31,040 bases of DNA from a virus, in the IMG/VR virus record IMGVR_UViG_3300013126_000146, positions 1 through 31,040 of that record; one strand, given 5' to 3'. The position numbers and the translations under genes are program-made. This document shows, in pieces, positions 1 through 29,017 of this stretch (within the stretch, counting starts at the first letter, position 1; the number at the start of each line of letters is the position of its first letter). The notes beneath the pieces are model-generated. The model saw only the letters and a program-made list of their open reading frames with translations. It was not told the DNA's origin and did no database searches.

Positions 1-2
1 GT

Positions 3-200
3 ATTGATGAATGGTGGGATAGTGGCAACGAGCAATATGAAGTCTTACAACAACACTTAGACAGGCTGGTGGAACTTGTAGCCGCCCGTGAACGAGAAGC
101 CTGTGCAAAGCTGTGTGATGAACTATCTGACAAACACACATGGGAGGGAAGCTATGCAGATGAATGCGCCCAAGCCATCCGAGCAAGGGGACAAGCATGA
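3..200 (+). CDS. Partial small phage protein, C-terminal 65 residues
   Basis: An open frame enters from the left edge and stops at TGA 198-200. The readable residues are charged and helical, with an AAREREACAKLCDEL stretch and a C-terminal AIRARGQA. Such Cys/Arg/Glu-rich tails are common at the end of short accessory phage proteins of unknown function. Its stop overlaps the ATG of the next gene (ATGA, 197-200), so the two are probably translationally coupled. The start lies outside the window and no function can be given. Confidence 0.7.
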   Translation: MDEWWDSGNEQYEVLQQHLDRLVELVAAREREACAKLCDELSDKHTWEGSYADECAQAIRARGQA

Positions 201-568
201 GCATTGAAGCAATGAAACAAGCGTTGGAGGCGTTGGAAAAAACTTTACGTTATCACGGTGTAATGTTGCTTTCTGACCCGCCACAAGAAGCATGGAAATA
301 CCACCGTGTTGAACAAACGGTGCTTGATGCCATCACATCCCTAAAACAAGCCATCGCAGAGGCAGAGAAGCAAGAAACTGCGGCAGATGACTTTTACAGG
401 ATGATTGCAGATAGAAATCCAAAACCATTTGACCCACCACAACGCCAATGGGTAGGGTTAACAAATCAAGAACGGTTTGAATTGGCTGTTCAAACAGGTG
501 CAATGAGCGCAGATTGGTTGATATTTTTGGAAGCAGTTGAAGCCAAACTCAAGGAACGCAATACTTGA
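197..568 (+). CDS. Hypothetical early phage protein (123 aa)
   Basis: The start is set at ATG 197, which overlaps the upstream stop and has a GGGG purine run at 187-190. An in-frame ATG at 164 lies inside the preceding gene and lacks a good ribosome site. The N-terminus is a predicted amphipathic helix (MSIEAMKQALEALEKTL), and a second helix is rich in Lys, Ala and Glu around residues 50-65. Short proteins opening with this type of helix are frequent in phages of Proteobacteria, with no assigned role. It is followed by a TTG-started gene overlapping by 4 nt. Confidence 0.75.
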   Translation: MSIEAMKQALEALEKTLRYHGVMLLSDPPQEAWKYHRVEQTVLDAITSLKQAIAEAEKQETAADDFYRMIADRNPKPFDPPQRQWVGLTNQERFELAVQTGAMSADWLIFLEAVEAKLKERNT

Positions 569-942
569 AATCCACACGCTTACCCAGAGTCGTTGACCTG
601 TTGCAGCGTCACGCGCTGACTGCGCCAGAGCTGGCGGCCAAGGTCTACTGTACCGAGCGTTCAGCGCAGCAGATGATCAACAAACTGAGACTCAAAGGCG
701 TGGTCCATATTCAAAGCTGGCGCAGAGTCGGCAACATATTAGTGGCAGAGTACCGCCATGGCATTGGCACTGATGCCCTCAAACCACCACCGCTGACACC
801 AATTGAGAGGTTGCGTAGGCATCGAGCCAAAGAGTCGCTGGACGATAAGGCGTTTCGTTTGGCGCGTGAGAGAGGCAAGAGATTTAAGCCACGGCGCGAT
901 CCGCTGGTGGCCGCACTGTTTGGAGATAAAAATGCCATATGA
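565..942 (+). CDS. Winged-helix/HTH-like DNA-binding protein (125 aa)
   Basis: The start is TTG 565, overlapping the previous stop as TTGA. Residues about 8-65 look like a winged helix: a helix at VVDLLQRHALTAPELAAKVYC, a recognition-helix-like ERSAQQMINKLRLKG, and a short beta wing (VVHIQSWRRV..ILVAEYRHG). The C-terminal 50 residues are strongly basic (repeated Arg/Lys, for example RERGKRFKPRRDP), consistent with extra DNA contact. Small proteins of this design are common in early regions of Proteobacteria phages and may regulate transcription. Target and role are not visible. The HTH reading is inference from sequence pattern. Confidence 0.7.
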   Translation: MKSTRLPRVVDLLQRHALTAPELAAKVYCTERSAQQMINKLRLKGVVHIQSWRRVGNILVAEYRHGIGTDALKPPPLTPIERLRRHRAKESLDDKAFRLARERGKRFKPRRDPLVAALFGDKNAI

Positions 943-1057
943 ATACATCACCCATGAAAATGGGTTTACTGAAATCATCGCGGTCAATTTGACCCCTGCT
1001 GAAGAATTTGACCCACCAACTCAAGGAGAAAAACATGACTTGACATCACCTAATTAA
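932..1057 (+). CDS. Very small hypothetical protein (41 aa)
   Basis: ATG 932 has a GGAGATAAA ribosome site just upstream (922-930), and the gene overlaps the end of the DNA-binding gene by 11 nt. The protein begins MPYEYITHENGF, is acidic and has no motif I recognise. A longer in-frame ORF reaches back to 803, but that part lies within the upstream gene and reads unnaturally, so the short form is preferred. The stop overlaps a strong promoter-like sequence for the next gene. Confidence 0.55.
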   Translation: MPYEYITHENGFTEIIAVNLTPAEEFDPPTQGEKHDLTSPN

Positions 1058-1070
1058 CTGTGCTTATAAT
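1040..1070 (+). promoter_or_regulatory. Candidate sigma-70-type promoter
   Basis: A perfect TTGACA (1040-1045) and a perfect TATAAT (1065-1070) are separated by 19 bp, longer than the usual 16-18. It lies across the end of the 41-aa gene and 34 bp before ATG 1104, in the only real break of the early cluster. It could start a transcript for the zinc-ribbon, exonuclease and RecT genes. The long spacer suggests a weak or activator-dependent promoter. Confidence 0.5.
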
Positions 1071-1103
1071 CTAATCCCGTTTAACTTTGAAAGGTTTGTG
1101 ACC

Positions 1104-1364
1104 ATGACCAAGTTGTGCATCCACTGTAAACACATATTGCCTGATTCTCTAGGCAAGATTACCCAAACCGCTAGATGCGGCTATGACCGCCCTATAAGCC
1201 TCGTTACAGGGCTTTTAAGAGAGCCTGACACCCTACCCTTTGCCGAGCTAGAAAGACGACCTACGGGGGCTTGTAGCTTGTCTGCGATACGGTGGGAAGC
1301 TACTGACCATGTGATGACAGAAGAAGAAGAAAAGGAACTTATGAAAGGATTCCCAAATGTCTGA
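1104..1364 (+). CDS. Cys-rich zinc-ribbon-like phage protein (86 aa)
   Basis: ATG 1104 is preferred over GTG 1098 because GAAAGG (1089-1094) then lies 9 nt upstream. Four cysteines are visible: a CIHC knuckle at residues 5-8, C25 (ARCGYDR) and C56 (TGACS). This is the usual layout of a small metal-binding phage protein carrying LVTG and ERRP turns. The C-terminus is an acidic helix (MTEEEEKELM). Proteins of this type are widespread next to phage recombination genes, but their role is unknown. It overlaps the exonuclease gene by 8 nt, suggesting co-translation. Confidence 0.7.
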   Translation: MTKLCIHCKHILPDSLGKITQTARCGYDRPISLVTGLLREPDTLPFAELERRPTGACSLSAIRWEATDHVMTEEEEKELMKGFPNV

Positions 1365-2253
1365 CTTCTCACCACAAACCCGTAACAGTGCCATCTGGTC
1401 TGGTGACTCCAGAAAGGTAGCCAACGGCAAAGCCAACGAGGTCATTCTGACAAAACAGGGAAAAATGGAAATCCCTGACCTGTCTGACAACGAGGCTGTC
1501 CAGATGGGTCATGTGATGGAACCAGTGATAGGTAGACTTGCACAGGCCAAGCTAGGCGTAGAGTTGACCAAGATTGAGGAGAGTCTCACCCATGCCAAAC
1601 ATACTTGGTTTAAATCACACTTTGACTTTGCAGGTAAAAAAGATGGAAAGACTATTCTGGTCGAGGCTAAGAACTACAACGCTGGTGTGCGTAACAAGTT
1701 TGATGTTGCGGGTATCTGTCCCCCTGCTGACCTTGCACAACTGGTGCACGAGGCTGCTGTTTACGGTGTCGATTTGGTTTATCTCGCCATATTATTCGGT
1801 GGTCAAGAATTCGTCCTCATTGAGTTCCACATCACTGATGAGCAGAAGGAAGACCTTATCAAACAAATGGCAGTCATCTGGGGGCATGTACAGTCAGGGA
1901 CTACCCTCCCACCTGAAGACCTTGAGCAAGTCAAACTTCTCTATCCTGTTTCAACAGAGTCGGTCAAGACAGCTTCTGCTTCAGTCGAGCAAGCGTGTCT
2001 AGCTCTTGCTCAAATCAAGGCCAACATCAAGGCTTTAGAAGAGCAAGAAGAGCAGTACGACACCCTAGTGAGGGGGTACATGGCAGACAGGGACACACTG
2101 GCGACCGTGGACGGCAAAGTGCTTGCAACTTGGAAGTCTGCCAAGTCAAGCATGAAGTTCGACAGCAAATTGTTTGAACAATCCATGCCAGACATCTATA
2201 AGCAGTACATGCGTGAAGTGCCTGGTAGCAGACGTTTTCTTTTGAAAGGGTGA
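1357..2253 (+). CDS. YqaJ-type viral recombinase / 5'-3' exonuclease
   Basis: This 298-residue protein fits the YqaJ viral recombinase family, relatives of lambda exonuclease with a PD-(D/E)XK fold. Visible motifs in order are G51..E55 (MGHVMEPVIGRLAQ), the catalytic D90 (SHFDFAG), E103-x-K105 (ILVEAKNY), and Q128 in a helix (DLAQLVHEAAVYG). The expected job is resecting double-stranded ends to give 3' single strands, which the RecT-like protein encoded downstream would anneal. The C-terminal part (about 200-298) is helical and less conserved. The start ATG 1357 has AAGGA upstream inside the previous gene. The fold call is from motif order. Confidence 0.85.
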   Translation: MSDFSPQTRNSAIWSGDSRKVANGKANEVILTKQGKMEIPDLSDNEAVQMGHVMEPVIGRLAQAKLGVELTKIEESLTHAKHTWFKSHFDFAGKKDGKTILVEAKNYNAGVRNKFDVAGICPPADLAQLVHEAAVYGVDLVYLAILFGGQEFVLIEFHITDEQKEDLIKQMAVIWGHVQSGTTLPPEDLEQVKLLYPVSTESVKTASASVEQACLALAQIKANIKALEEQEEQYDTLVRGYMADRDTLATVDGKVLATWKSAKSSMKFDSKLFEQSMPDIYKQYMREVPGSRRFLLKG

Positions 2254-2261
2254 GGTTCACC

Positions 2262-2450
2262 ATGTTTTTCAGAAACAAAAATTTAGAGAGAAGAGTAGCT
2301 GATTTAGAAGCTAACTTGTTCAAAGTAAAGTTGGAGTTGGATACGACCACTATTCGACTTAACAGCTTATTGAAAGCCTATCCACATGGCACTACACGCA
2401 CAGGTGCACCACGTAAGAAGCCAGGCAGAAAGGCAAAGGTGACAACATGA
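2262..2450 (+). CDS. Small coiled-coil protein (62 aa)
   Basis: ATG 2262 is favoured, with GGTGAGG at 2249-2255; a GTG at 2250 overlaps that purine run. Residues 8-40 form a heptad-like coiled coil (NLERRVADLEANLFKVKLEL). The last 18 residues are basic and Pro/Gly-rich (GAPRKKPGRKAKVTT), like an AT-hook or a nucleic-acid-binding tail. It lies between the exonuclease and RecT-type genes, so a role in the recombination module is possible. I do not recognise a named family. Confidence 0.65.
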   Translation: MFFRNKNLERRVADLEANLFKVKLELDTTTIRLNSLLKAYPHGTTRTGAPRKKPGRKAKVTT

Positions 2451-2662
2451 AAGCCTATCCCTACATGCACAAACACCCCACCTCTGGACAAACCACGATA
2501 GAAGAGGGTATGGATTTGAGAGATTACTTTGCGGCTAAGGCTATGCAAGGCTTGTTGTCATCTGATGTTCATGCGCCTATAGAAGAGTTTGCAAAGAACG
2601 CATACACAATGGCAGACGCAATGATTGAACAACGTAACAAAAAGGAGGTTTCCAGTGAGTAA
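2447..2662 (+). CDS. Conserved small phage protein (71 aa)
   Basis: The start overlaps the previous stop (ATGA). The core MDLRDYFAAKAMQGLL followed by a helix ending AYTMADAMIEQR is a recurring pattern in short phage proteins encoded beside recombination genes, with unknown function. The end of this gene carries the AGGAGG ribosome site (2642-2647) used by the RecT-type gene, which starts 8 nt before this gene stops. Confidence 0.7.
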   Translation: MKAYPYMHKHPTSGQTTIEEGMDLRDYFAAKAMQGLLSSDVHAPIEEFAKNAYTMADAMIEQRNKKEVSSE

Positions 2663-3518
2663 CTTAATCGCAGTCAGTGACATGCAAGTAATGGCAGAGG
2701 CCATTGTCAAATCAAACTTCTACGGTTTTAAAACAAAAGAACAGATGTTGGCAGTCATGCTTGTGGCTCAAGCAGAAGGTAAACACCCTGCAACAGTAGT
2801 ACAAGAATACGACATAATTCAAGGCCGACCAGCATTGAAATCTCAAGCTATGCTCGCTCGCTTTCAACTTGCGGGTGGTACTGTCCAGTGGGATGAGGTC
2901 AGCCCTCAAGCTGTCAAAGGTACGTTCAAACACCCGTCTGGCGGCAGCTTGACGGTTGAGTGGACGATTGACATGGCAAAGCAAGCAGGGCTTGTCAGAG
3001 AGGGTTCAGGATGGACGAAATATCCTGAAGACATGCTAAGGTCTAGAGTCATCTCTAGAGCCGTTAGAAGCGTCTATCCCGCCTGTATCTTGGGGCACTA
3101 TGCTGTAGAAGAGGTGGCTGATTTTGACCCACCTAAAACCAAGCACATGGGCATGGTGGAACGGGTGGATGACCTACCGCCAGTTGAAGTTGTTGAGATG
3201 GTTGAGGACGGAGCGTTTGCACTTTTCGTCCCGAATGCTGAAGAGCCATACAAGCGATTTACAAGCAAAGAAGATTGGATAGAGGGCTATGCCGACCTCG
3301 TTTCTCGCATCATGGAGAGCAAAAAATTCACTTTGGCGCAAAAGGAAGACAAGCTCACCGCTCTTGCCGACTGCAATAAAGATATTACAGAAAACTTTTC
3401 AAGCATGGAGCGAGTCAAGCTCAAAGCAAGAATTGTCGAGTCAGGAGGGTCAGCAAGCCCAAAGTCGGTCAAGTCCCATCCCGAAGCCGATTCGCATCTC
3501 AAAGAACAAATATTCTGA
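2655..3518 (+). CDS. recT: RecT-family single-strand annealing protein
   Basis: A 287-residue protein of the RecT/phage annealing family. It shows the family's N-terminal helix pair (VMAEAIVKSNFYGFKTKEQM), the alternation AQAEGKHPATVVQEYDIIQG then RPALKSQAMLARFQLAGG, and the beta segment ending WTIDMAKQAGLV before SRVISRAVRSVYP. It should coat single strands left by the upstream exonuclease and pair them with complementary DNA during replication or repair. The start is GTG 2655 because a perfect AGGAGG lies 8 nt upstream; an in-frame TTG at 2625 sits inside the neighbour and has no site. The C-terminal 80 residues are charged and variable. Confidence 0.85.
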   Translation: MSNLIAVSDMQVMAEAIVKSNFYGFKTKEQMLAVMLVAQAEGKHPATVVQEYDIIQGRPALKSQAMLARFQLAGGTVQWDEVSPQAVKGTFKHPSGGSLTVEWTIDMAKQAGLVREGSGWTKYPEDMLRSRVISRAVRSVYPACILGHYAVEEVADFDPPKTKHMGMVERVDDLPPVEVVEMVEDGAFALFVPNAEEPYKRFTSKEDWIEGYADLVSRIMESKKFTLAQKEDKLTALADCNKDITENFSSMERVKLKARIVESGGSASPKSVKSHPEADSHLKEQIF

Positions 3519-3523
3519 GATGG

Positions 3524-3685
3524 ATGCAAAGCGGGAAAACCATCACTCCGATAGAGGCTCTAAATGAATTCAACTGTTTCAGGCTTGCAGCCCATATCGA
3601 AGTTCTTAGACGGGAGGGACACCGAATCTTCACGCACATGGTTGACCAAAATGGTAAGAAGTTTGCCCGTTACACACTCAACTGA
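3524..3685 (+). CDS. Small HTH-type phage protein, start uncertain (53 aa or more)
   Basis: From ATG 3524 the frame encodes GKTITPIEALNEFNCFRLAA, then HIEVLRREGH and KKFARYTLN. This is the widespread phage helix-turn-helix domain (HTH_39-like) in which the ITPIEAL helix, CFRLAA helix and REGH turn form a compact wing. It probably binds DNA. Family-like sequence continues upstream of the ATG (SQRTNILRWM), but no ATG, GTG or TTG exists there in frame. A CTG at 3515 overlaps the RecT stop as CTGA and would restore part of helix 1. No strong ribosome site is seen for either start. Confidence 0.7.
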   Translation: MQSGKTITPIEALNEFNCFRLAAHIEVLRREGHRIFTHMVDQNGKKFARYTLN

Positions 3686-3695
3686 AAGGAACTAC

Positions 3696-4025
3696 ATGAG
3701 GAACGAACACAAAGAAATGCCTGGTTCAGGCGTGATGTATTGGGAAGATGAGGAACAGCGCAAGTCTCCCAAAGGCCCTGACTTTAAAGGATTCCTTGTC
3801 CTAGAAATGGATTACAGGGCGGGGGAGAAGTTGAAGATTGCTGCATGGCAAAAGCCTACCAGTAGAGGCTCTAACCTACTTGCTTTGAAGGAGGACAACT
3901 GGAGCAAGAAGAAACGTGAAGAAGAACGTGCAGACAAAGAAGTCCCTTCCTCATACAACAAATCCTATAACAAGGGTGGGTTTCGCAGACCTTCACGGGA
4001 TGATGACGAATCTATTCCATTTTGA
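3696..4025 (+). CDS. Small protein with SSB-like acidic C-terminal tip (109 aa)
   Basis: ATG 3696 has GAAAGGA 5-11 nt upstream. Residues 10-70 read as a short beta-rich domain (GFLVLEMDY, KLKIAAWQKPT, NLLALKEDNW), resembling compact DUF736-like or OB-type domains. A Lys/Arg/Glu-rich linker follows, and the protein ends DDDESIPF. That ending closely matches the acidic tip of bacterial SSB that recruits partner proteins. It could therefore be a single-stranded-DNA-associated factor of the recombination module. The beta domain is shorter than a normal SSB OB fold, so SSB identity is not claimed. Confidence 0.65.
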   Translation: MRNEHKEMPGSGVMYWEDEEQRKSPKGPDFKGFLVLEMDYRAGEKLKIAAWQKPTSRGSNLLALKEDNWSKKKREEERADKEVPSSYNKSYNKGGFRRPSRDDDESIPF

Positions 4026-4348
4026 TGGCAACAAAAGTCTCTCCCACACAGCGTAGCTTGGCTCATCTCCGTGAACTTGGCTACCACGTTGAAGTAGTTG
4101 AGAAGTGGAACAGCTTCACTAAACAACGAAAAGACCTGTGGGGATGGGCAGATTTACTTGCTATCAGGAAGGGTGAGGTTTTGGCAGTGCAGGTTACCGC
4201 CTCTGCTGTCAGTGACCGCATAAAAAAGATTATGGCCTCTGACACGCTTGCTCTTGTGAGAGATGCAGGGATTCGTGTGGAGGTGCATGGCTGGCGCAAG
4301 TCAGCAAAGACCAACAAATATGTTTTAAGAATTGAGGACATTTCATGA
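4025..4348 (+). CDS. PD-(D/E)XK-like nuclease / resolvase-like protein (107 aa)
   Basis: The protein has the size and order of a minimal restriction-endonuclease fold: a helix with EVVEKWN, then DLWGWADLLAIR (D43), a turn, and EVLAVQVT. In Hjc-like resolvases the last strand would be E-x-K; here Q56-x-T58 occupies that place. Similar phage proteins with this QVT strand exist, and their activity is uncertain. ATG 4025 overlaps the upstream stop as TGATG. The position after the SSB-tail gene suits a recombination or repair role. It could also be a catalytically altered nuclease-fold DNA binder. Confidence 0.65.
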   Translation: MATKVSPTQRSLAHLRELGYHVEVVEKWNSFTKQRKDLWGWADLLAIRKGEVLAVQVTASAVSDRIKKIMASDTLALVRDAGIRVEVHGWRKSAKTNKYVLRIEDIS

Positions 4349-4536
4349 GTGACGCTAAACCATCACCACAACAACTCCAGATGAGCCAAGACTCACTCAC
4401 AAAAGCCAACAACAGCATGAACTACACCATCAATTTGGTCAACATGTCTCTGCAACAATTGTGGAACATTGCCTACGCTGCTGGCTTTGAAGACGCACAA
4501 GAGATTATGAAAACAGACAGAGGTACACAACAATGA
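4345..4536 (+). CDS. Hypothetical early protein (63 aa)
   Basis: The start overlaps the nuclease stop (ATGA), and the end overlaps the glycosyltransferase start (ATGA). The protein is Gln/Ser/Asn-rich with a C-terminal helix (LQQLWNIAYAAGFEDAQEIM). The AYAAGFEDA turn is like those in many small phage proteins of unknown role. No domain is recognised. Support comes mainly from exact packing between two convincing genes. Confidence 0.65.
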   Translation: MSDAKPSPQQLQMSQDSLTKANNSMNYTINLVNMSLQQLWNIAYAAGFEDAQEIMKTDRGTQQ

Positions 4537-5279
4537 GCAAAGCACATGTCTTTATCTCAACCCCTATGTATGGTGGCATGTGTACAGGGTACTTCACACA
4601 GTCTCTGGTCAACACCATAGGAGTGATGTCACAGGCGGGTATCACTGTCAGTTTCTCTTGCATGTTCAACGAGAGCCTTATTCAGCGTGGGCGTAACGCT
4701 CTTGCACATGGGTTTCTCAAGCGTCCTGAGCCTACCCACTTGATGTTCATAGACGCAGACATACGGTGGAATCCCGCTGATATTGTGAAGATGGTAGAGG
4801 CAGACAAGGACATCATCTGCGGTATCTATCCCAAGAAGGAAATCAACTGGCATGGCGTGGAAGCTGCCGTCAAAGAAGGCGTGGCTGTTGACCAACTCAA
4901 GACAAGAACAGGTAGCCTGGTCGTTAACCTTGTGGATTACCAAGGCACAGTCACAGTACCCGCACATGAGCCTGTAGAGATATGGAACGGCGGTACAGGG
5001 TTCATGCTTATCAAGCGGTCTTGTTTGGAAGACTTGGCAACAAAGATGCCTACCTATGTCAATGATGTCACCGACCTGTCAGGACAGATGAAGAACGACA
5101 ACATCACCGAGTTCTTTGCCTGTGCCATAGAGCCAGGTGTCAACAGACTTCTGTCAGAAGATTACTACTTCTGCATGAAAGCACGAGAGCATGGGTACAA
5201 GATTTACGCTGCTCCGTGGGCTGTGCTAGGTCACTTTGGCACATATTTGTTTGAGGGTGGCTTGCTACCCGCACCATGA
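4533..5279 (+). CDS. GT-A-fold glycosyltransferase
   Basis: A 248-residue protein with an N-terminal HVFISTPMYGG strand-turn, the QRGRNALAH helix (about 51-59) and the DxD-type MFIDADIRWNP (D74-A-D76), expected to bind metal and a nucleotide sugar. It has further GT-A features: DKDIICGIYPKKE and a GTGFMLIKRS strand, then EDYYFCMKAREHGYKIYAAP near the C-terminus, where an acidic residue would act in transfer. The acceptor (phage DNA, virion protein or host surface) cannot be read from sequence. It overlaps the following methyltransferase by 4 nt, forming a two-gene modification cassette. Confidence 0.8.
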   Translation: MSKAHVFISTPMYGGMCTGYFTQSLVNTIGVMSQAGITVSFSCMFNESLIQRGRNALAHGFLKRPEPTHLMFIDADIRWNPADIVKMVEADKDIICGIYPKKEINWHGVEAAVKEGVAVDQLKTRTGSLVVNLVDYQGTVTVPAHEPVEIWNGGTGFMLIKRSCLEDLATKMPTYVNDVTDLSGQMKNDNITEFFACAIEPGVNRLLSEDYYFCMKAREHGYKIYAAPWAVLGHFGTYLFEGGLLPAP

Positions 5280-5746
5280 CTATTTCACTTGACCTTGGGT
5301 GCGGAGAAACCATCCGCAACCCTTACCAAGCCAGTCAGGTCATAGGACTGGATATAGAGGACGCTGACCTTGCTATCCAGCCTATCCCCTACAGGGACGA
5401 GTATTTTGACTTTGTGACCGCCTACGACTTCCTAGAGCATATTCCAAGGTTGTTGTATGTCCCACAGCGCAGATACCCGTTTGTGGAACTGATGTCAGAG
5501 ATTTACAGGGTGATGAAGGTGGGTGGCAAGTTCTTGTCCTCCACCCCCGCATTCCCACATGCGCCAGCCTTCCAAGACCCCACCCATGTCAACATCATCA
5601 CGCCTGATACCTTCTACGAGTATTTTGATGACGAGAAGACTTGGGCAAAACAATATGGGTTTAAGGGCAAATTCCACATCAACAATATGCGCTACCACGG
5701 CCCTCACCTGATAGCCGAGCTACAGAAGGTGCATGTCAACGTTTAG
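5276..5746 (+). CDS. Class I SAM-dependent methyltransferase (156 aa)
   Basis: The Rossmann methyltransferase motifs are clear: motif I LDLGCG (5-10), the acidic end of strand 2 at VIGLDIED, motif IV-like FDFVTAYDFLEHI (44-56), and a VMKVGGKFL strand-turn with STPAFPHAP after it. It most resembles small methyltransferases encoded beside glycosyltransferases, which often act on sugars, but the substrate is unknown. It is at the 3' end of the plus-strand cluster. Its last 11 bp overlap the end of a convergent 48-aa gene on the other strand. Confidence 0.8.
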   Translation: MTISLDLGCGETIRNPYQASQVIGLDIEDADLAIQPIPYRDEYFDFVTAYDFLEHIPRLLYVPQRRYPFVELMSEIYRVMKVGGKFLSSTPAFPHAPAFQDPTHVNIITPDTFYEYFDDEKTWAKQYGFKGKFHINNMRYHGPHLIAELQKVHVNV

Positions 5747-5882
5747 CGGTTCTCTTTGACCTGATAAACGCTTCTTTGGTGGGGTAACCCGCCATGCCTG
5801 GTCGCTTGGGCGGCAACCCTGCCGCTCTGCGTTGGTTGATGTTGAAATACAAGCCTCGTTGGGCTTTAGGTGTATATGCCAT
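5736..5882 (-). CDS. Small basic conserved phage protein, last gene of late strand (48 aa)
   Basis: Reading the minus strand, ATG 5882-5880 lies 6 nt after a canonical AAGGAG (plus-strand CTCCTT, 5889-5894). The frame runs to TGA at 5736 without interruption. The peptide is basic, with GLYFNINQRRAAG, then KRPGMAGYPTKEAF and a KRTAKR end. The GLYxNIN...GYPTKEAF...RTAKR pattern matches a family of tiny proteins common in phage late regions (DUF6321-like, by memory). Function is unknown. It shows that the late strand extends past the endonuclease gene to meet the early cluster, overlapping it by 11 bp. Confidence 0.75.
   Translation of the reverse strand: MAYTPKAQRGLYFNINQRRAAGLPPKRPGMAGYPTKEAFIRSKRTAKR
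5810..5825. repeat. 6-bp inverted repeat, tight hairpin
   Basis: GCGGCA (5810-5815) and TGCCGC (5820-5825) pair perfectly around a 4-nt loop. It lies inside the 48-aa minus gene, near the convergence of early and late transcription. No T-run follows on either strand, so it is not a normal intrinsic terminator. It may be chance in a GC-rich codon run. Confidence 0.3.
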
Positions 5883-5891
5883 ACAAACTCC

Positions 5892-5920
5892 TTGACATCC
5901 AGTTATTTGTTCGTGACAAT
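5892..5920 (+). promoter_or_regulatory. Candidate promoter for the opposite-strand endonuclease
   Basis: A perfect TTGACA (5892-5897), a 17-bp spacer and GACAAT (5915-5920, four of six consensus bases) end just 6 bp before ATG 5927. Transcription would start at or very near the start codon, giving a leaderless message. The -35 box overlaps the ribosome-site DNA of the divergent 48-aa gene. Only sequence similarity supports it. Confidence 0.4.
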
Positions 5921-5926
5921 AAAGAC

Positions 5927-6523
5927 ATGAACAATCGTAAACGCTTTGAACGGGTTTGTCTATTGTGCGGCAAGTTTGAATTGGTCAGGTCTGACCAGTT
6001 GAAAAGCAAATGTCGAGATTGCCAAAATAAACTTGGTGCACAGCAACTGGAAGAATTTCACAAATTGAATCCAGAAGCTGCTGGAAACGCATCCAGAAAA
6101 CATGGCATGCACAAGACACGTTTGTACCGCATACACAAAACAATGATGGAAAGATGCGGTCACATGGGTAGACGGCACAAATGGGCTATGTATTACGAAG
6201 ACAGAGGTATCAAAGTCTGCAAAGAATGGCACAACAGAGAGGTGTTTTTTGCTTGGGCTTTGACAAATGGATACTCTGACGAACTTGAGCTAGACAGAAT
6301 AGACAACGATAAAGGCTACCAACCAGATAATTGTCGTTGGGTTACACACAAACAAAATCAAAACAACAGAAGAAACAGCAGGTCTGTTCGTTGGTCTTCT
6401 TATGGTAATCAATGTTTTTGTTGTGGGTCATCTAAAAAACCCCATTTAGCAAAAGGATTGTGTTCCCCTTGCTATCAAAAGTCTATCTACATCCCCAACG
6501 CTTCAAAGATGCTTTTGCCCTAG
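5927..6523 (+). CDS. Free-standing HNH/homing-endonuclease-like protein with zinc knuckles (198 aa)
   Basis: The centre (about 58-150) has the pattern of phage homing-type endonucleases: HGMHKTRLYRIHKTMMERC, a YYEDRGIKVCKEW segment, FAWALTNGY, then ELDRIDNDKGYQPDNCRWVT and QNQNNRRN. The LDRIDNDxGYxPDNCRW segment is the hallmark of this group. N-terminal CxxC pairs (C11/C14, C29/C32) and a C-terminal set (C163-C166, C179/C182) suggest two zinc knuckles. ATG 5927 is chosen because earlier starts (5870, 5876) lie in the start region of the opposite 48-aa gene. It runs against the late strand, and its 3' end overlaps the convergent 84-aa gene by 41 bp, as expected for an inserted selfish gene. 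Confidence 0.75.
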   Translation: MNNRKRFERVCLLCGKFELVRSDQLKSKCRDCQNKLGAQQLEEFHKLNPEAAGNASRKHGMHKTRLYRIHKTMMERCGHMGRRHKWAMYYEDRGIKVCKEWHNREVFFAWALTNGYSDELELDRIDNDKGYQPDNCRWVTHKQNQNNRRNSRSVRWSSYGNQCFCCGSSKKPHLAKGLCSPCYQKSIYIPNASKMLLP

Positions 6524-6737
6524 TTGCAGGGCCTTTAGATTTTTTTACAACGCCTTTCATTCTGGCACAGAATGACTTGTGACGAGGGTTTGATGTATCT
6601 TTGGTTGGGGCTTTAAGGTTGCTACCTGTCGCCCTGTTTGCCTTTGCTCTGCCCTTGGCAGTCAGTCCCGCACCCGCTTTCACAGACAGCTTCTCGCCTC
6701 TGCCCACAGATAGGTTGGGAAACTTCTTTCTAGGCAT
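6483..6737 (-). CDS. Basic conserved phage protein (84 aa)
   Basis: A highly Lys/Arg-rich protein with Gly/Ala: NLSVGRGEKLSVKAGAGLTA, then a SFCARMKGVVKKSKGPATRA segment and KASLKRWGC at the end. The SFCARMKG...LKRW block recurs in small phage proteins encoded near lysis or tail genes. Its role is unknown, and binding to nucleic acid is plausible from charge alone. ATG 6737 overlaps the stop of the M15 peptidase gene by 8 nt, with CGAGG upstream. The 3' end overlaps the opposite endonuclease gene. Confidence 0.75.
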   Translation of the reverse strand: MPRKKFPNLSVGRGEKLSVKAGAGLTAKGRAKANRATGSNLKAPTKDTSNPRHKSFCARMKGVVKKSKGPATRAKASLKRWGCR

Positions 6738-7152
6738 AAAACCTCGTACCTTGTTTGTCTATGATTAAGGCTATCTTACGAGGTTCTGCATCATCTGTGT
6801 TAGGAATAGAGATGTGTGTCCATCCCAACTCTAGTATCAACTGGTCGTAAGGCAGTTTGGCATCATAAATAGCTTTTACCACTTGAGCAGAGGTCATCTG
6901 CGGTACACGAAAATCTGCGGCACACCCACGCAAATGTTGACTCACAGAAGTGCTTCCTACCGCATGGTTAACCTCTGGTGACCTGTACCCAGAATCAATG
7001 ATGATGGGCTTGCCCAACACCTTTCTCACCTGCTCTAAAAACTCAGCAAGCCTTTGTAAGTTGTTGATTTGTACCGCATTTGGGGTGTTGTCAAACTCCC
7101 TGTGGGAAGTGAATGTCAATTCGGCAAGGGTAAAGTGAGGCGTGAGCTTCAT
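6730..7152 (-). CDS. M15-family peptidoglycan peptidase (endolysin)
   Basis: A 140-residue Peptidase M15_3-type enzyme. It shows FTLAELTFTSH at the N-terminus, the conserved IIDSGYRSPEVNHAVGS, the zinc motif SQHLRGCAADF (H73, D80), and the second half DQLILELGWTHIS (E108 near the active site, H113 as third zinc ligand). Members cleave peptide cross-links of peptidoglycan, so this is the likely lysis enzyme. It lacks a signal peptide or membrane segment, so it needs the holin encoded immediately upstream (ATGA overlap) to reach the wall. Confidence 0.88.
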   Translation of the reverse strand: MKLTPHFTLAELTFTSHREFDNTPNAVQINNLQRLAEFLEQVRKVLGKPIIIDSGYRSPEVNHAVGSTSVSQHLRGCAADFRVPQMTSAQVVKAIYDAKLPYDQLILELGWTHISIPNTDDAEPRKIALIIDKQGTRFYA

Positions 7153-7556
7153 GGTCTAGCAACACCTTGCAACTTCTCAACCGTGCGTAAACCACCTAGT
7201 CCAAGCAAGCCTATCAACACAGGCATCATTTCAGACAGGTCAGCGGGGGCAATAGGAAAAGGTATTTGTTGGTACACAGAGAGGGCTTTGACAAGCGGTA
7301 TGCCTATCCAATTCCATGCACAGGCAGAGCCACATACCCAACCTATGAATGGCCTCCACCCAGAGACAAAAACAGAGGCATTCTGAGCCTCTGCTTTGTT
7401 GATTTCCATCTGACCTGTGATGACCGCAAGTTCACCCGACTGCTGAAGTTTTATCAACTCCAGTTTGGCTTGGGCAGCTTGGGAAGGGTCAGGCCATACC
7501 CTGTCGATAACCTTGTTGCCTACTTCTAAAAGAATAGAAACAGGGTCTAAGGCCAT
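7149..7556 (-). CDS. Holin of the 3TM/GTA family
   Basis: A 135-residue protein with an N-terminal amphipathic and charged helix (about 1-55, EINKAEAQNAS) and the family signature SGWRPFIGWVCG (65-76). Hydrophobic segments at about 69-98 and 108-124 (MMPVLIGLLGLGGL) follow. This matches the GTA_holin_3TM family, which forms membrane lesions to release endolysin. It is coupled to the peptidase gene by ATGA, and its start overlaps the upstream stop as TAATG. Confidence 0.85.
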   Translation of the reverse strand: MALDPVSILLEVGNKVIDRVWPDPSQAAQAKLELIKLQQSGELAVITGQMEINKAEAQNASVFVSGWRPFIGWVCGSACAWNWIGIPLVKALSVYQQIPFPIAPADLSEMMPVLIGLLGLGGLRTVEKLQGVARP

Positions 7557-7912
7557 TACGACAGTCCTTCACCTGGTGTCAGATACGCCTCTGGAGTACC
7601 TGTCTCAGAAACAAAGGTGACGTACACAGGTGCAGTGTTTGTCACTTGTGGGCCAGTAACAACCATGACAGTGTCGGGAGGAACAATCACAGAATATGTA
7701 GGAGAACCATTACTAGGCAATGCCACGTTTGCAGTAGCACTGTTGCTAATACGTACGTACACAGGCAACCCTGCGCCACCCGTAGGCTCATGGCTGACCA
7801 ACATGTACTGATTGGAGGGACTGTCAGAATAGACTGTAGTTTGCTGAATGGTGGTAGCCGCATTCAGCTTGTACGTTTTACCCATAGGCTGGAAGGCAAT
7901 GTTATTAGCCAT
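7556..7912 (-). CDS. Beta-rich structural-type protein (118 aa)
   Basis: The sequence alternates Thr/Val/Ser beta strands (VYVRISNSATANVAL, YSVIVPPDTVMVV) and ends EAYLTPGEGLS. The layout and the NQY and TPG-G landmarks resemble the protein encoded at 16894-17223, so they look like distant paralogues. Small virion surface or tip proteins of this kind bind capsid or tail, but no specific role is supported. It is the last structural-type gene before the holin. Its start overlaps the upstream stop as TGATG. Confidence 0.6.
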   Translation of the reverse strand: MANNIAFQPMGKTYKLNAATTIQQTTVYSDSPSNQYMLVSHEPTGGAGLPVYVRISNSATANVALPSNGSPTYSVIVPPDTVMVVTGPQVTNTAPVYVTFVSETGTPEAYLTPGEGLS

Positions 7913-8127
7913 CAGTAGACCTTTCCACCACCACCAGAAGTAGGCGATTCCTTGCGGGTGAAGTAATCGTTAGGTTGATTGTTTTTGAAGTTCCAGACAG
8001 ACTGGAAGCCACCTGCGGGAAGTTTGCCAGGGGTAAATTCACCAGGCATACACAATTTGTTTTGTATGACACCAGTGCCAACTTGAGCCTCTAACTTAGT
8101 TGTCTTTACTTTCGGAATCATGTCCAT
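7912..8127 (-). CDS. Hypothetical late protein (71 aa)
   Basis: A good AAAGGAG ribosome site lies before ATG 8127, within the end of the upstream membrane-protein gene (32-nt overlap). The protein is rich in Lys, Gly and Pro (MPGEFTPGKLPAGGFQSVW) and ends in a flexible SGGGGKVY. No domain is recognised. Translational coupling with both neighbours supports its being real. Confidence 0.65.
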   Translation of the reverse strand: MDMIPKVKTTKLEAQVGTGVIQNKLCMPGEFTPGKLPAGGFQSVWNFKNNQPNDYFTRKESPTSGGGGKVY

Positions 8128-8317
8128 GTTTTTTCTCCTTTACCATTACTAGCAGATAACTGAATATTACATAAATTGCAAGTATTGTCACCCTCTCCCA
8201 ACCCATCCCCCACATGGCCCAACAAGCCAGTCCACAAGAGGTGAGCAGAGCAAGAATAGTGATAAGGCGTTCTGACAGCACCTGTAGTGCCAAGCGAATG
8301 ATTGCGGTTGCTTCCAT
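8096..8317 (-). CDS. Small two-helix membrane protein, possible accessory lysis protein
   Basis: A strong AAGGAG site precedes ATG 8317. Residues about 18-37 (LITILALLTSCGLACWAMWG) and 43-60 (VTILAIYVIFSYLLVMV) are hydrophobic. A charged tail follows (KEKKHGHDSESKDN), probably cytoplasmic. Two-helix proteins beside a holin are often second holins, antiholins or pinholins. This is inference from topology and position only; no family signature is seen. Confidence 0.6.
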   Translation of the reverse strand: MEATAIIRLALQVLSERLITILALLTSCGLACWAMWGMGWERVTILAIYVIFSYLLVMVKEKKHGHDSESKDN

Positions 8318-8349
8318 TTTCTCTCCTTAATGTCGGGATAACCATATTA

Positions 8350-8559
8350 TCATGTCTCCTCGTCATCATCTCCAAACAGACCAGCACCGTATCCCTCGTC
8401 AGCGTCCTTCATCTTCAAGGCTTCTAGCTTTAAAGCACGGTCAATGACTTTCATCTTGTCGGTGATAGAGGACGTTTGGTCAGACATGACCTCTGCCATC
8501 AGCTTGTTGATGTGCTTCTCAAGCTCTGGGTTTATACCCCTGTCCTTCTTTTTGCTCAT
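8350..8559 (-). CDS. Conserved small acidic/charged protein (69 aa)
   Basis: The protein is helical: LEKHINKLMAEVM, then a conserved-looking ITDKMKVIDRALKLEALKM and a Gly/Asp/Glu tail (LFGDDDEET). The DKMKVIDRALKLEALK helix is a pattern I recall from small phage late proteins of unknown role. Its start overlaps the stop of the 58-aa gene (ATGA at 8556-8559). Confidence 0.7.
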   Translation of the reverse strand: MSKKKDRGINPELEKHINKLMAEVMSDQTSSITDKMKVIDRALKLEALKMKDADEGYGAGLFGDDDEET

Positions 8560-8732
8560 CGCTTCATCTTGCGAGGCTCGGCACGTTTCATTTGCTTTGC
8601 CTGTTCTTTCATCATCATGCGGTTGTAGTCCTCAGACGCACGAAGCTCGTTTTCTCCACCCTCACGGGCCATGCGGTCGATTTGGGCTTGTGTGTACTTG
8701 CCCATAGATTTTTTGTCGTACTGGTCTTTCAT
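8556..8732 (-). CDS. Small charged helical protein (58 aa)
   Basis: The frame runs from ATG 8732 to TGA 8556 with TAGGAAA upstream. The product begins MKDQYDKKSMGKYTQAQIDR and ends KRAEPRKMKR, a Lys/Arg/Glu/Met-rich helix. It is linked by ATGA overlaps to the genes on both sides (8729-8732 and 8556-8559), which is the main evidence. Function is unknown. It is one of three consecutive basic mini-proteins here. Confidence 0.65.
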   Translation of the reverse strand: MKDQYDKKSMGKYTQAQIDRMAREGGENELRASEDYNRMMMKEQAKQMKRAEPRKMKR

Positions 8733-8872
8733 TGTTTCCTAGCCTTTCTTTTGGCTTTTCTTGCCGTTGTGAGTGCAATAGCAATTGCTTGCTTTTGCGG
8801 TTTACCCGCCTTCATCTCTCTGCGGATGTTGGCAGAAATGGTTTTCTGACTACTACCTTGTTTCAATGGCAT
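8729..8872 (-). CDS. DUF6496-like basic mini-protein (47 aa)
   Basis: The peptide reads MPLKQGSSQKTISANIRREM, then KAGKPQKQAIAIALTTARKA and a basic end. The SxKTISxNIRxEMKAGKPQKQAIAIAL core is a widely recurring short phage protein family (DUF6496, by recall) with no known role. It is probably a small helical virion or nucleic-acid-associated protein. ATG 8872 follows GGAG and comes 1 nt after the TAG of the 866-aa gene. Confidence 0.75.
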   Translation of the reverse strand: MPLKQGSSQKTISANIRREMKAGKPQKQAIAIALTTARKAKRKARKQ

Positions 8873-8873
8873 A

Positions 8874-11474
8874 CTAATCTCCAGTTACAGTTTCTATAAT
8901 TGCACCTACAGGTCTTGGAACGCCATAACCTAAAATTGCGTTGTTTATCAATCTTTGTGTTATAGACATCTTGTCTGCCAAGGATGCAGGTGCTACATAG
9001 ATTTCGTTTAACTTTGCAGCAATAGCATCTGTTTGAGACTTGGTCATCAATCCGTATGACACCAAGTCATCACTGATATATTTCCAATCGTTAATTGCTC
9101 CCTTTAAGCTACCCCCTGCTTTGTCGGCTATAACTTGACCAACGGCTTTAGCAAATTGTTCTTTGCCATCAGGCTCAGCCAAAACAATACGAGACATCTC
9201 TTCAAACTCAGCACGGTTTTTGCCTAGAATAATGTCTCGCACACGCCTAGAGTCTGTTGTTCCAGCAAGAATTACTTTAGCCTTATCTTCTGCGGCTTGT
9301 CTGATTGCAGATGCTTCTGTACCAGCTTGTTTTGTAACAGCGGCGGCTTCTTTTTCACCAGTAGCTTTAATCTCAGATGCTGTTTTCTTTTCCAGCTTCA
9401 ATGCTTTTGCAGCATCTTGTATGCGTTTTTGCTCAACCTTTGCCGCTTGCTTTTCTGCTTCAGAGGTAATTATTGGAGTTTGCTTTGTCAACATCTCTGG
9501 CAAACCTTGCGCTTCTGTACGCAAAGCTGTAGCAAGTTTTCCTCTTGCGCCACCAAATTGTTCTGCCCTTGCAAGGTTTGTAACATACGCTTGAACTTTT
9601 GCTTGCAAGTCAGACAAAGATGGGTGAGACAAGAAGTCTTGATTCTTTGCTTGGTTTAACCATGAACTTGCCTGTTGAGCATTCATTCCTCTAAGCTGAC
9701 TTGCAACATAGTCACCAGCGGTTTGTCTTACTAGACGTTCATCACCTGTCTGCGTAATTAACCTGTCAACCCCTGTTCTATTAGAGAAAAATACATTTCC
9801 AAGTTCGGCAGGTGGCTTTAACACATCTGCTGTACCTTGTTCTATCTCAGTCAGAGATTTACCTGCCTTCGTTTCAAACAACTCTAAACGCTTAGTAGCC
9901 TGTGCCCAGTTGTCTTGCAAGGCTTTACGCTGTACTTGACCAACATAATCTTCTTGCAACTTCTTGAGCAAGGCATAAGCATTTTGCTGAACTTGTCCTT
10001 TTACCGCCTCATAACCTTCAGGTGGATTCTTAAACACTGTGCCAGCAAACCTACGAGCATCATCAGCCGCTTCAAAAGATGAATTGAAAACTCTATAAAA
10101 CCTACCGCCATCTTGTTGCACAGGGAAACCAAGGTTTGATGCTGCCTTTGCTTGTTCTTCTGTCAACTCATAACGCTGGTCAATTACAGAGTCTCGAATA
10201 CGCTTGTAAAAGGCAAGCACACCTGAGTCTGTAACTCTACGCACAGTTGGTGATGTAACTGGGTCAAAAGGTCGTGTAAGAGCTTCTATTTGTTTGTAAG
10301 CATCCATGTCAGACAGTTTTATGCCCTTGGATTCATTTGCCGCAACAATTTTTGCTTGCTCTTGACGCAAAGTCTTATCAAGCTCATCCCTTTCTTTAAT
10401 AATGGTTTTTTGTCTTTCTAAGGTAGTTTTTTGTACAGGCGTAAATACATCTGTCAAAGGCTTATCTTGTCCGATAGTTTTTATTTCTGCTTGCGCCTTG
10501 CCAATGTTTTGCTGACTTCTTTGTGTCAACTCACCTGATTTTTTTCTCAAGTTTGCAATTTGAGCACGGGTTTGTTTTTCAAGTTGTTGAACTTTAGCTT
10601 GAGCTTTACTGAGAATATCTTTTGCATCCATCTCTGCAAGTTGACGTACAGACGGACTGTAAGACCTTGCTCTTGCTCTAATTTCATTTGCACGTTTTGT
10701 AGCATCATCTAAGATTTGTTTTGATTGAAAAGCGGCTTGTGATTCTATTGTTGCTGCATCTGTTGCCGCTGTACTACGCAACCGTGCTACATCTTTCTTG
10801 AGCATCTCAACAATTTCTTTTTCTGCTTCTATGCTGCTATGACCACCACGGATGTCATCTAGCTTTTTTTGAATAAACGCACGTTGTTCTGCTGAAAGAT
10901 TAGGTGCAGCAATACCTTGCTCTTGCAATAACTGTCCTACAGTTCTGCCTGTAGAAAAGCCAGGTATGCCCATCTTTGTACCTAATGCAGAAATCAAACC
11001 ACCTGTCTTTGTGCCTAAATACTGAACAGGAACAGGGCCAAGAGTGCTTGCTGTCAGTCGAGTTAACTCAGCACCAAGGCCAGGGCCATATTGAGATTCA
11101 TAAACTTGACCAGCAGTTTCTCCAGCCACACCACCAACAACACCTGTTGCCATTGCCGCAGGGCGTGATGACTTCATTGCTGTTCCAGCCAACTCCAAAC
11201 CAGTACCTACATATCTAGCTACTCTTCCAGCAGAGCCAGGTAAAACTTCACCCTTGCGTATAACCTTGCCTGTGGTTTCTGCTATCTCAGGAAACACAGT
11301 ACCAGCAATACCACCTATCAAACCTTGGCGACCTACTTCAACAGCTTGTCCCGCTATGTCTTTTTTAGGTTTGTCTTCTGCATAGGTTTGTTCAAGTATG
11401 GGTGAGTCAACAACATCAACATCAGACAGTTTTAATTTAACTGGCTTATCTTCGGTTACTTCAGAAAGTTTCAT
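8874..11474 (-). CDS. Large internal virion / ejection-type protein (866 aa)
   Basis: The N-terminus has repeated KLSEV/KLSDVD motifs. Glycine-rich, membrane-like stretches follow at about 50-62 (GLIGGIAGTVF) and 106-123 (AAMATGVVGGVAGETAG). Long Ala/Lys/Glu/Gln coiled coils lie at about 190-380 and 650-760. A third KLSD motif (GIKLSDMDAYKQIEAL) lies near 400. Size, coiled coils and position after the tail genes match the ejected core proteins of podoviruses. No lysozyme or transglycosylase motif is visible. The start overlaps the upstream stop (ATGA). Function is inferred from context and composition. Confidence 0.65.
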   Translation of the reverse strand: MKLSEVTEDKPVKLKLSDVDVVDSPILEQTYAEDKPKKDIAGQAVEVGRQGLIGGIAGTVFPEIAETTGKVIRKGEVLPGSAGRVARYVGTGLELAGTAMKSSRPAAMATGVVGGVAGETAGQVYESQYGPGLGAELTRLTASTLGPVPVQYLGTKTGGLISALGTKMGIPGFSTGRTVGQLLQEQGIAAPNLSAEQRAFIQKKLDDIRGGHSSIEAEKEIVEMLKKDVARLRSTAATDAATIESQAAFQSKQILDDATKRANEIRARARSYSPSVRQLAEMDAKDILSKAQAKVQQLEKQTRAQIANLRKKSGELTQRSQQNIGKAQAEIKTIGQDKPLTDVFTPVQKTTLERQKTIIKERDELDKTLRQEQAKIVAANESKGIKLSDMDAYKQIEALTRPFDPVTSPTVRRVTDSGVLAFYKRIRDSVIDQRYELTEEQAKAASNLGFPVQQDGGRFYRVFNSSFEAADDARRFAGTVFKNPPEGYEAVKGQVQQNAYALLKKLQEDYVGQVQRKALQDNWAQATKRLELFETKAGKSLTEIEQGTADVLKPPAELGNVFFSNRTGVDRLITQTGDERLVRQTAGDYVASQLRGMNAQQASSWLNQAKNQDFLSHPSLSDLQAKVQAYVTNLARAEQFGGARGKLATALRTEAQGLPEMLTKQTPIITSEAEKQAAKVEQKRIQDAAKALKLEKKTASEIKATGEKEAAAVTKQAGTEASAIRQAAEDKAKVILAGTTDSRRVRDIILGKNRAEFEEMSRIVLAEPDGKEQFAKAVGQVIADKAGGSLKGAINDWKYISDDLVSYGLMTKSQTDAIAAKLNEIYVAPASLADKMSITQRLINNAILGYGVPRPVGAIIETVTGD

Positions 11475-28210: not shown

Positions 28211-29017
28211 TCACGCTTGCTTAGAGGGGGCAATTTTGTACTCCACGGTATAGCCTTGGCTTTGTAGCCACAGCATAAAAGCCACTTCTCCATAGGCTTG
28301 GGTAGGGTCAGAGGGGACAATGATGTGGTTGTTGGGCGTGAGCTTCCTTGTTTGGGCGTGATGACCCAACAAAGAGCCAAAATCAAACCCATCTTCGTGA
28401 AAGCCGTGCCCGACATACTCCATGCTGAAGTGCTTGGCAATGTCGATAGGGCAATATTTGTACCCGTAAGACTCCAACACAGGCTTCAGGATGGCTGACA
28501 ACTGAGCATCTTCGTTCCACCCGTGTATCTCGTTGCTGTTCAAGTGCATGATGCCATGCCTGTTACAGGCTTCTAGGAAGCGTTTGCTTCTCAGGCTAAA
28601 CCCACCGTTTTGCACGACAGAGACAGGCTCTTGTGCTTGTGTCCACGAGAATTTCAGGTAGAGGTTGCCGTACCCAAACGCACAGTGTGAGGGTGCGCCT
28701 ATGTAGTCATAATCATAGTATTCAGGTTTGAAGTTCTTGCCGTTCAACACCCATCCGTCATCTTGGACTATCAAACAGTAGTCTGTCTCTATGTAGGCGT
28801 ACAAGCCGTGCATCATAAAGAGCGAGTACCCAAGATAGTCTATAGGGTGGCAACGCTTCCAGACTATGTTGCTTGGCAAGTCGGGTGGTTCTTCTATAGA
28901 AATAAGTAAGCCTTTACTACCAGGCAACTCTTGCATAGACTTGAGGATAGAGGGTATGGCAGACGCACCATTGTTGTGCCCGTAGATAGACACGATGGTT
29001 AATTTATTGTGAACCAT
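28211..29017 (-). CDS. DUF5672-type glycosyltransferase (GT-A)
   Basis: A 268-residue protein with the family's steps: LTIVSIYGHNNGA at the N-terminus, TDYCLIVQDDGWVLN (QDD 85-87, metal/sugar-nucleotide site), YDYDYIGAPS, VVQNGGFSLRSKRFLEAC, and GWNEDAQLS with the acidic NED at 168-170. Such enzymes move sugars onto unknown acceptors. Here the gene lies between TerL and the HTH gene and is co-transcribed with packaging genes, so a virion or DNA target is possible. It overlaps the end of the TerL gene by 14 nt. Confidence 0.8.
   Translation of the reverse strand: MVHNKLTIVSIYGHNNGASAIPSILKSMQELPGSKGLLISIEEPPDLPSNIVWKRCHPIDYLGYSLFMMHGLYAYIETDYCLIVQDDGWVLNGKNFKPEYYDYDYIGAPSHCAFGYGNLYLKFSWTQAQEPVSVVQNGGFSLRSKRFLEACNRHGIMHLNSNEIHGWNEDAQLSAILKPVLESYGYKYCPIDIAKHFSMEYVGHGFHEDGFDFGSLLGHHAQTRKLTPNNHIIVPSDPTQAYGEVAFMLWLQSQGYTVEYKIAPSKQA

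Follow-up and report, generated by a model that had tools for sequence, protein, structure and literature searches.

An HNH endonuclease cassette lying antisense at the joint of the last two late genes of a virus genome

A gene that faces the transcription of its neighbours raises the question of how it came to lie between them, and of how it and they can then be expressed. Such a case is found in a 31,040-base virus record, which was analysed as a whole and is referred to here as the window: a plus-strand gene for a 198-aa HNH-type endonuclease lies between the last two genes of the minus strand, a DUF6321 gene and a 48-aa gene that we call p48. The explanation that we favour, at a probability of about 75%, is that a free-standing HNH cassette of about 0.6 kb was inserted in antisense orientation between the stop codon of the one gene and the start codon of the other, bringing its own promoter, leaving p48 with a repaired ribosome site and spreading by homing.

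Layout of the locus and its empty counterparts

In profile searches, the minus strand gave family matches for terminase, portal, major head protein, adaptor, tail fibre, holin and endolysin, and its assignment as the late strand holds. By the same searches, the plus strand has a methyltransferase gene, genes resembling RecE and RecT, and one with a weak likeness to glycosyltransferases; the RecE-like exonuclease and RecT-like annealing genes are found at 1357-3518, upstream of the methyltransferase. By order of transcription, the final late genes are the holin, the endolysin, the 84-aa DUF6321 gene and p48, with the HNH gene between the last two. The features of the region, with the evidence for each in brackets, are:

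5276..5746, plus strand: methyltransferase, last gene of the plus-strand run, converging on p48 and overlapping it by 11 bp (PF08241, 2.7e-8)
5736..5882, minus strand: p48, 48 aa, last late-strand gene (PHROG matches, 64 viral loci, low dN/dS)
5883..6482, no strand: 600-bp segment separating DUF6321 stop and p48 ATG, absent at empty sites (alignment, census)
5888..5893, minus strand: AAGGAG Shine-Dalgarno sequence of p48, spanning the cassette edge at 5891 (sequence)
5892..5920, plus strand: TTGACA-N17-GACAAT, promoter-like, at the edge of the cassette and 6 nt upstream of the HNH ATG (10/12 consensus)
5927..6523, plus strand: 198-aa endonuclease of HNH type, carrying one CxxC..CxxC in its N-terminal part and a further CxxC..CxxC stretch at the C terminus (PHROG, alignments)
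6371..6523, plus strand: C-terminal part of HNH, about residues 149-198, absent from the HNH of relatives L082/L086 (alignment)
6483..6523, no strand: antisense overlap of the HNH and DUF6321 3' ends, 41 bp (sequence)
6483..6737, minus strand: DUF6321 late gene, 84 aa, C-terminal end type ...PATRAKASLKRWGCR (PF19846, 1.3e-15; relatives)
6730..7152, minus strand: endolysin, peptidase M15 (PF08291, 8.8e-20; phrog_894, 1.1e-36)
7149..7556, minus strand: holin, GTA_holin_3TM (PF11351, 1.9e-25; phrog_3427, 2.1e-31)

A preliminary description of this DNA had taken the minus-strand frame at 5736-5882, with its canonical AAGGAG, for a familiar small phage protein, and had proposed that the late strand runs on past the endonuclease. 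All of this is borne out: the AAGGAG stands 5 nt before the p48 ATG, p48 is conserved, and the strand carries late gene families. The protein matches 3 PHROG families of unknown function in profile searches (3.2e-6 to 7.2e-5); its relatives are encoded at 64 viral loci and, at E values up to 0.01, in 44 annotated phage records, 41 of which are Synechococcus, Prochlorococcus or other cyanophages. Between the window and one relative, L004 (loci are given as L numbers), p48 shows 10 synonymous and 0 nonsynonymous differences, and dN/dS is below 0.13 in all nine comparisons with computable dS (of eleven run). Judged by these patterns, p48 is a conserved gene and more than a chance ORF. A single 141-position profile, phrog_11180, matches both p48 (positions 12-53) and DUF6321 (positions 73-141), in the order p48 then DUF6321, and the two genes occur in this reverse order at 13 loci (for instance L035, L039 and L070); together, the fused profile and the reversed loci suggest a joint function for the two genes.

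To compare the DUF6321/p48 joint between viruses, a census was made from the best 80 of at least 587 confirmed DUF6321 relatives, plus p48 relatives: 157 sequences, less 20 (19 repeats and the window's own locus), gave 137 loci including the window. Both genes are held by 112 of the 137, while 20 have DUF6321 with no recognised p48 and 5 have no recognised DUF6321; since loci were picked by similarity to the window, such fractions are not population frequencies. Among the both-gene loci, p48 directly follows DUF6321 at 84, the order is reversed at the 13 mentioned above, and the genes are more than 200 bp apart at 15. The gap between adjacent genes is about -16 to +8, measured to the first residue of the query and uncertain by a few bases. 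In the closest relatives among those sampled, the DUF6321 stop and the p48 start share one base, TAATG, an overlap that recurs at 40 loci (34 unique sequences). The check proposed beforehand, that the two late genes be adjacent in endonuclease-free relatives, thus comes out positive.

Aligned with these empty sites, the window has an extra segment with exact borders, 600 bp long, that separates the stop codon of DUF6321 from the ATG of p48. It contains the plus-strand HNH gene, placed antisense exactly between the two late genes as had been described, with the 41-bp overlap of the endonuclease 3' end with the 84-aa gene that had likewise been noted. In L082, which bears HNH, the flanking genes show roughly the same divergence from the window as they do at empty loci. 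The extra segment is precise, its presence among comparably diverged relatives is sporadic, and its flanks in the window are intact. The layout of a free-standing insertion is supported by these observations, the endonuclease having its own ORF and no intron or intein position. Two earlier expectations stood only in part. The gap does define the insertion site; it need not define the cut site, because known free-standing endonucleases of phages cleave at distances of hundreds or thousands of bp (PMC2988022, in the part used here). Neither gene is broken in the window, but in one contig that appears as both L084 and L096 DUF6321 and HNH have both lost their 3' ends to a deletion of 54 bp, as compared with L082, and in L155 the HNH gene borders an apparently bare DUF6321 3' tail. 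The deletion spans the HNH/DUF6321 overlap, and the DUF6321 frame there runs on antisense through the HNH gene.

The start of p48 is unusually uniform in its codons. At positions of conserved amino acid in the 34 unique empty alleles (for instance L004:6165-6300), the commonest synonymous codon has a share of 0.94 in codons 2-14 (11 codons) against 0.64 in codons 15-48 (22 codons; p = 4e-5), and restricting the comparison to 4- and 6-fold codons leaves 0.91 against 0.63 (p = 0.002); these p values are a guide only, because the sequences are related. With regard to codon bias as a cause, the same amino acids take mixed codons further along p48. Other p48 types show the conservation of codons 2-14 less clearly. 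The contrast appears to mark the p48 start region as being under nucleotide-level constraint at the joint beyond the protein code, and a joint with this property would suit an endonuclease target. RNA structure as the reason for the synonymous conservation is not supported, as none of 19 predicted pairs shows a compensatory change in 13 aligned empty alleles. An inverted repeat, AAGCC-N6-GGCTT, is present in most of these 13.

The cassette edge and translation of p48

The sequence common to four divergent cassettes (window, L150, L153 and L155) starts with CTTGACA, and these cassettes adjoin three different contexts: the p48 junction, the end of a glycosyltransferase-like gene and a DUF6321 tail. 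It is the comparison of L153 and L155 with the window that sets the extent of this shared edge; the window and L150 share 8 more bases. After TTGACA and 17 further nucleotides comes GACAAT in the window and L153, GAAAAT in L150 and GATAAT in L155, and this putative -10 box is separated from the HNH ATG by 6 nt in the first three cassettes listed and by 5 nt in L155. The cassette edge in the window is the best and only 10/12 consensus match in positions 1-10000; promoter-like sites in that region are not above shuffles (8 against 11.4 expected), and the whole 31-kb window has eight 10/12 matches, seven of them outside the cassette edge. The hexamers are weakly more conserved than the spacer (11/12 against 10/17 columns, p = 0.06). 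A strict four-edge pattern, built from the very cassettes that it finds, has exact matches in no viral contigs but six, each of which was a known carrier of this HNH, and none in 100 shuffled versions of the window.

No Shine-Dalgarno sequence is found between the -10 box and the ATG in any of the four cassettes. With the textbook distance from a -10 box to the transcript start, the placement of the two boxes would fit a leaderless sigma70 gene in all four. We infer that the HNH gene probably has its own promoter and a leaderless start. This inference is of moderate strength, because hexamer conservation is weak, the promoter scan is at chance level and other genes also do without a Shine-Dalgarno sequence: by a loose rule, one is present at 24 of 32 picked genes of the window, and seven genes besides HNH have none. 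Expression by another route, with HNH as the distal gene of the plus-strand run reached by read-through past the convergent joint, would be compatible with insertion. In favour of it, the HNH gene shares its strand with the RecE/RecT-like genes and the methyltransferase gene, and starts 180 bp after the stop of the latter; against it, four divergent cassettes in three contexts have all retained the promoter-like edge, and there is no Shine-Dalgarno sequence for translation inside a longer mRNA. We consider read-through doubtful on this balance.

Insertion would also affect p48. In the 18 nt before its ATG, no AGGA, GGAG or GAGG is found at any of the 34 unique TAATG empty sites, so that p48 is there probably translated by coupling to DUF6321. 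At the occupied joint, TGTCAAGGAGTTTGT precedes the p48 ATG in the window, L092, L094 and L096, and an exact search for this junction found, besides the window, only those three. Of this sequence, TGTCAAG corresponds to the cassette edge read as its reverse complement, and GAGTTTGT is additional. Since the cassette edge supplies TGTCAAG and the neighbour GAG, the AAGGAG appears to have been made where the two meet. At the corresponding place L085/L086, in which p48 was not found, read TGTCAAGCGTTAAG, and AAGGAG is absent. The junction AAGGAG may replace the lost stop-start coupling, in which case the uncoupled p48 would be translated from this new site, formed where the TCAAG of the cassette edge meets GAG.

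These arrangements allow a more tentative proposal, to which we give somewhat less than even odds: that the cassette is self-contained and leaderless, that its edge works on both strands, as a -35 box on the plus strand and, through TCAAG and GAG, as half of a new Shine-Dalgarno sequence on the minus strand, thereby allowing an antisense landing, and that endonuclease genes of at least two classes, along with genes of two further types, have landed time and again at the overlapping joint.

The endonuclease and other genes at the joint

The frame of the HNH gene is open upstream to 5870, with candidate starts at 5870/5876 and 5927. We prefer 5927 to the two upstream starts for two reasons: in L155 the frame is closed by a TAA only three codons ahead of the corresponding ATG, and the upstream stretch coincides with the promoter-like block. 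In profile searches, the longer frame (5870-6523) matches phrog_374 (1.3e-34) and phrog_3377 (1.3e-31), and by profile match the protein is a member of the PHROG_374/PHROG_3377 family of HNH endonucleases; no Pfam HNH model and no NCBIfam model matches. By tblastn, 552 phage records match, all at below 60% identity and none covering 80% of the protein. A scan of bacterial and archaeal genome contigs for a relative gave 32 pattern matches, none of which was confirmed. Closer relatives are the HNH proteins of L082-L086, 77-78% identical over the first 148-154 residues, and of L155, 72% identical. Compared with L082, pN is 0.143 and pS 0.73, values by which the HNH core is under purifying selection. 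An excess of pS as a sign of separate arrival was not used, as 0.73 compares with 0.30-0.69 for other genes against L082 and there is no excess against L086. In a weak profile alignment with I-HmuI (1u3e; E 0.19, not significant), the motif D-H-K-D aligns with D-R-I-D; because the histidine position reads arginine in this family, and the alignment is itself weak, catalysis is not assured. With regard to the beta-beta-alpha-metal fold of HNH enzymes, with its catalytic His and Asn, an AF2 model places strands at 120-125 and 136-140 and a helix at 141-151, and is poor (mean pLDDT 54).

The cassette is also found in other surroundings, and its neighbourhood bears marks of decay and possibly of exchange. 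HNH is beside DUF6321 in L085/L086, and no methyltransferase was found in L086. In L155, which is cut by the contig end, the HNH 5' edge adjoins what we take to be the 3' tail of a DUF6321 gene (KGKRGKAARRRWGCR and stop), a stretch of insufficient length for detection by BLAST. A second HNH gene, 42% identical and in sense orientation, is present in L094 (10557-10994), directly after an apparent RecE-like gene (labelled by eye). The PATRAKASLKRWGCR type of DUF6321 3' end in the window differs from that of its close relatives and also occurs in HNH-free loci such as L006 and L010, and the HNH genes of the window and L082 differ in the 3' portion next to it. Genes around the cassette are mosaic (pS 0.30-0.69 against L082). 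Exchange around the insertion has been reported for phage endonuclease genes (PMC10448857, in the part consulted), and the differences in the DUF6321 end and the HNH 3' part would fit such exchange; as these phages are mosaic throughout, local signs of this kind are not proof of a conversion tract. A sliding identity plot of the empty alleles was uninformative, with unrelated stretches force-aligned.

The 15 interrupted loci hold four kinds of insertion: the antisense HNH at 4, a sense methyltransferase at 7, a 190-aa sense protein at 3 and a NUMOD4-HNH gene at 1. The antisense HNH loci (4 of the 112 with both genes) are the window, L092, L094 and L096, the last three being near-identical contigs that count as one lineage. 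The 174-aa methyltransferase lies in a 505-bp gap in every case (L036, L050, L062, L017, L020, L044 and L054), and its L036 copy matches phrog_32762 (3.2e-62). The 190-aa protein is encoded between DUF6321 and p48 in L128, L131 and L144, and its L128 copy has no Pfam, PHROG or NCBIfam match; the gap in L131 is 553 by BLAST coordinates, as in L128, a scripted value of 634 being wrong because the contig end cuts DUF6321. In L128 (2794-3366) this gene overlaps both DUF6321 and p48. The remaining locus, L125, has a sense NUMOD4-HNH endonuclease (NUMOD4 1.8e-14, HNH_3 1.3e-11). All genes at the joint other than the cassette lie in sense orientation. Gene insertion at this joint has therefore happened repeatedly, and the two endonuclease architectures found there face opposite ways.

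Competing explanations and known systems

The variety of genes at the joint could also be explained by passive insertion, with the joint accepting genes by illegitimate or homologous recombination and HNH not homing, or no longer doing so. Its methyltransferase and 190-aa genes, neither recognised as a nuclease, speak for this, as does the arginine aligned with the I-HmuI motif histidine, but the purifying selection on the HNH core and the occurrence of the same cassette with the same edge in other contexts make it unlikely in our estimation. That selection would also agree with a nuclease domesticated for a phage function such as packaging, rival exclusion or regulation, for which the HNH protein of HK97, acting with terminase, is a precedent (PMC10448857, as far as used here). 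A domesticated gene is hard to reconcile with the sporadic presence of HNH among both-gene loci and with its distance from the terminase gene at 29004-30761, and we regard this explanation as improbable. Least credible of all is an ancestral HNH gene that relatives lost precisely: adjacent pairs could come from deletion, and L084/L096 shows one at this place, but that real deletion destroys the DUF6321 3' end, repeated deletion to exactly TAATG is far less likely than insertion, and other insertions sit at the same joint.

Under the favoured explanation of insertion and homing, the HNH cassette would have landed antisense exactly where the stop codon of DUF6321 overlaps the start codon of p48. 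A sigma70-like promoter at its edge would give it a leaderless mRNA, independently of late transcription, and it would spread by cutting empty alleles and then being copied into them by recombination, which the phage-encoded RecE/RecT-like proteins could carry out. Beyond the preliminary description, the analysis adds the overlap of the two genes at empty sites, the promoter-like edge that the cassettes have in common, the Shine-Dalgarno sequence formed at the junction and the insertion hotspot. The locus offers a natural pair of occupied and empty alleles, defined to a base or two, for an endonuclease gene facing late transcription, and it points to the DUF6321/p48 joint as a specific hotspot of insertion in mosaic phages.

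Neither the arrangement nor the term DUF6321 was found in the open-licence papers searched. Several known systems resemble it in part. The hidden HNH element of ShiLan is likewise an HNH insertion, proposed to be translated with neither a leader nor a ribosome site, but it lies inside a methylase gene in another frame, whereas the present cassette occupies a gene junction, antisense, with a promoter-like edge (PMC11855218, in the part drawn on). The mob genes of T4 are free-standing, intergenic HNH genes with tight stop/start geometry, such as the UAAUGA coupling of mobE; they have the same orientation as their neighbours, whereas here the HNH gene is antisense and the coupling was between the two neighbours (PMC2988022, in the sections used). 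The closest precedent is T4 segD, a free-standing gene between genes 23 and 24 that, like this HNH gene, is oriented against its neighbours, and the sole T4 endonuclease gene against its surroundings according to the same sections. It differs in being of the GIY-YIG class, and in that, by the same review, no segD-specific promoter was found, whereas a promoter-like edge is shared by the cassettes described here. A layout against late transcription has thus been represented by one uncharacterised gene in T4, and the present locus suggests how such an antisense gene may be tolerated: through its own promoter, the lack of a leader and a repaired ribosome site for its neighbour.
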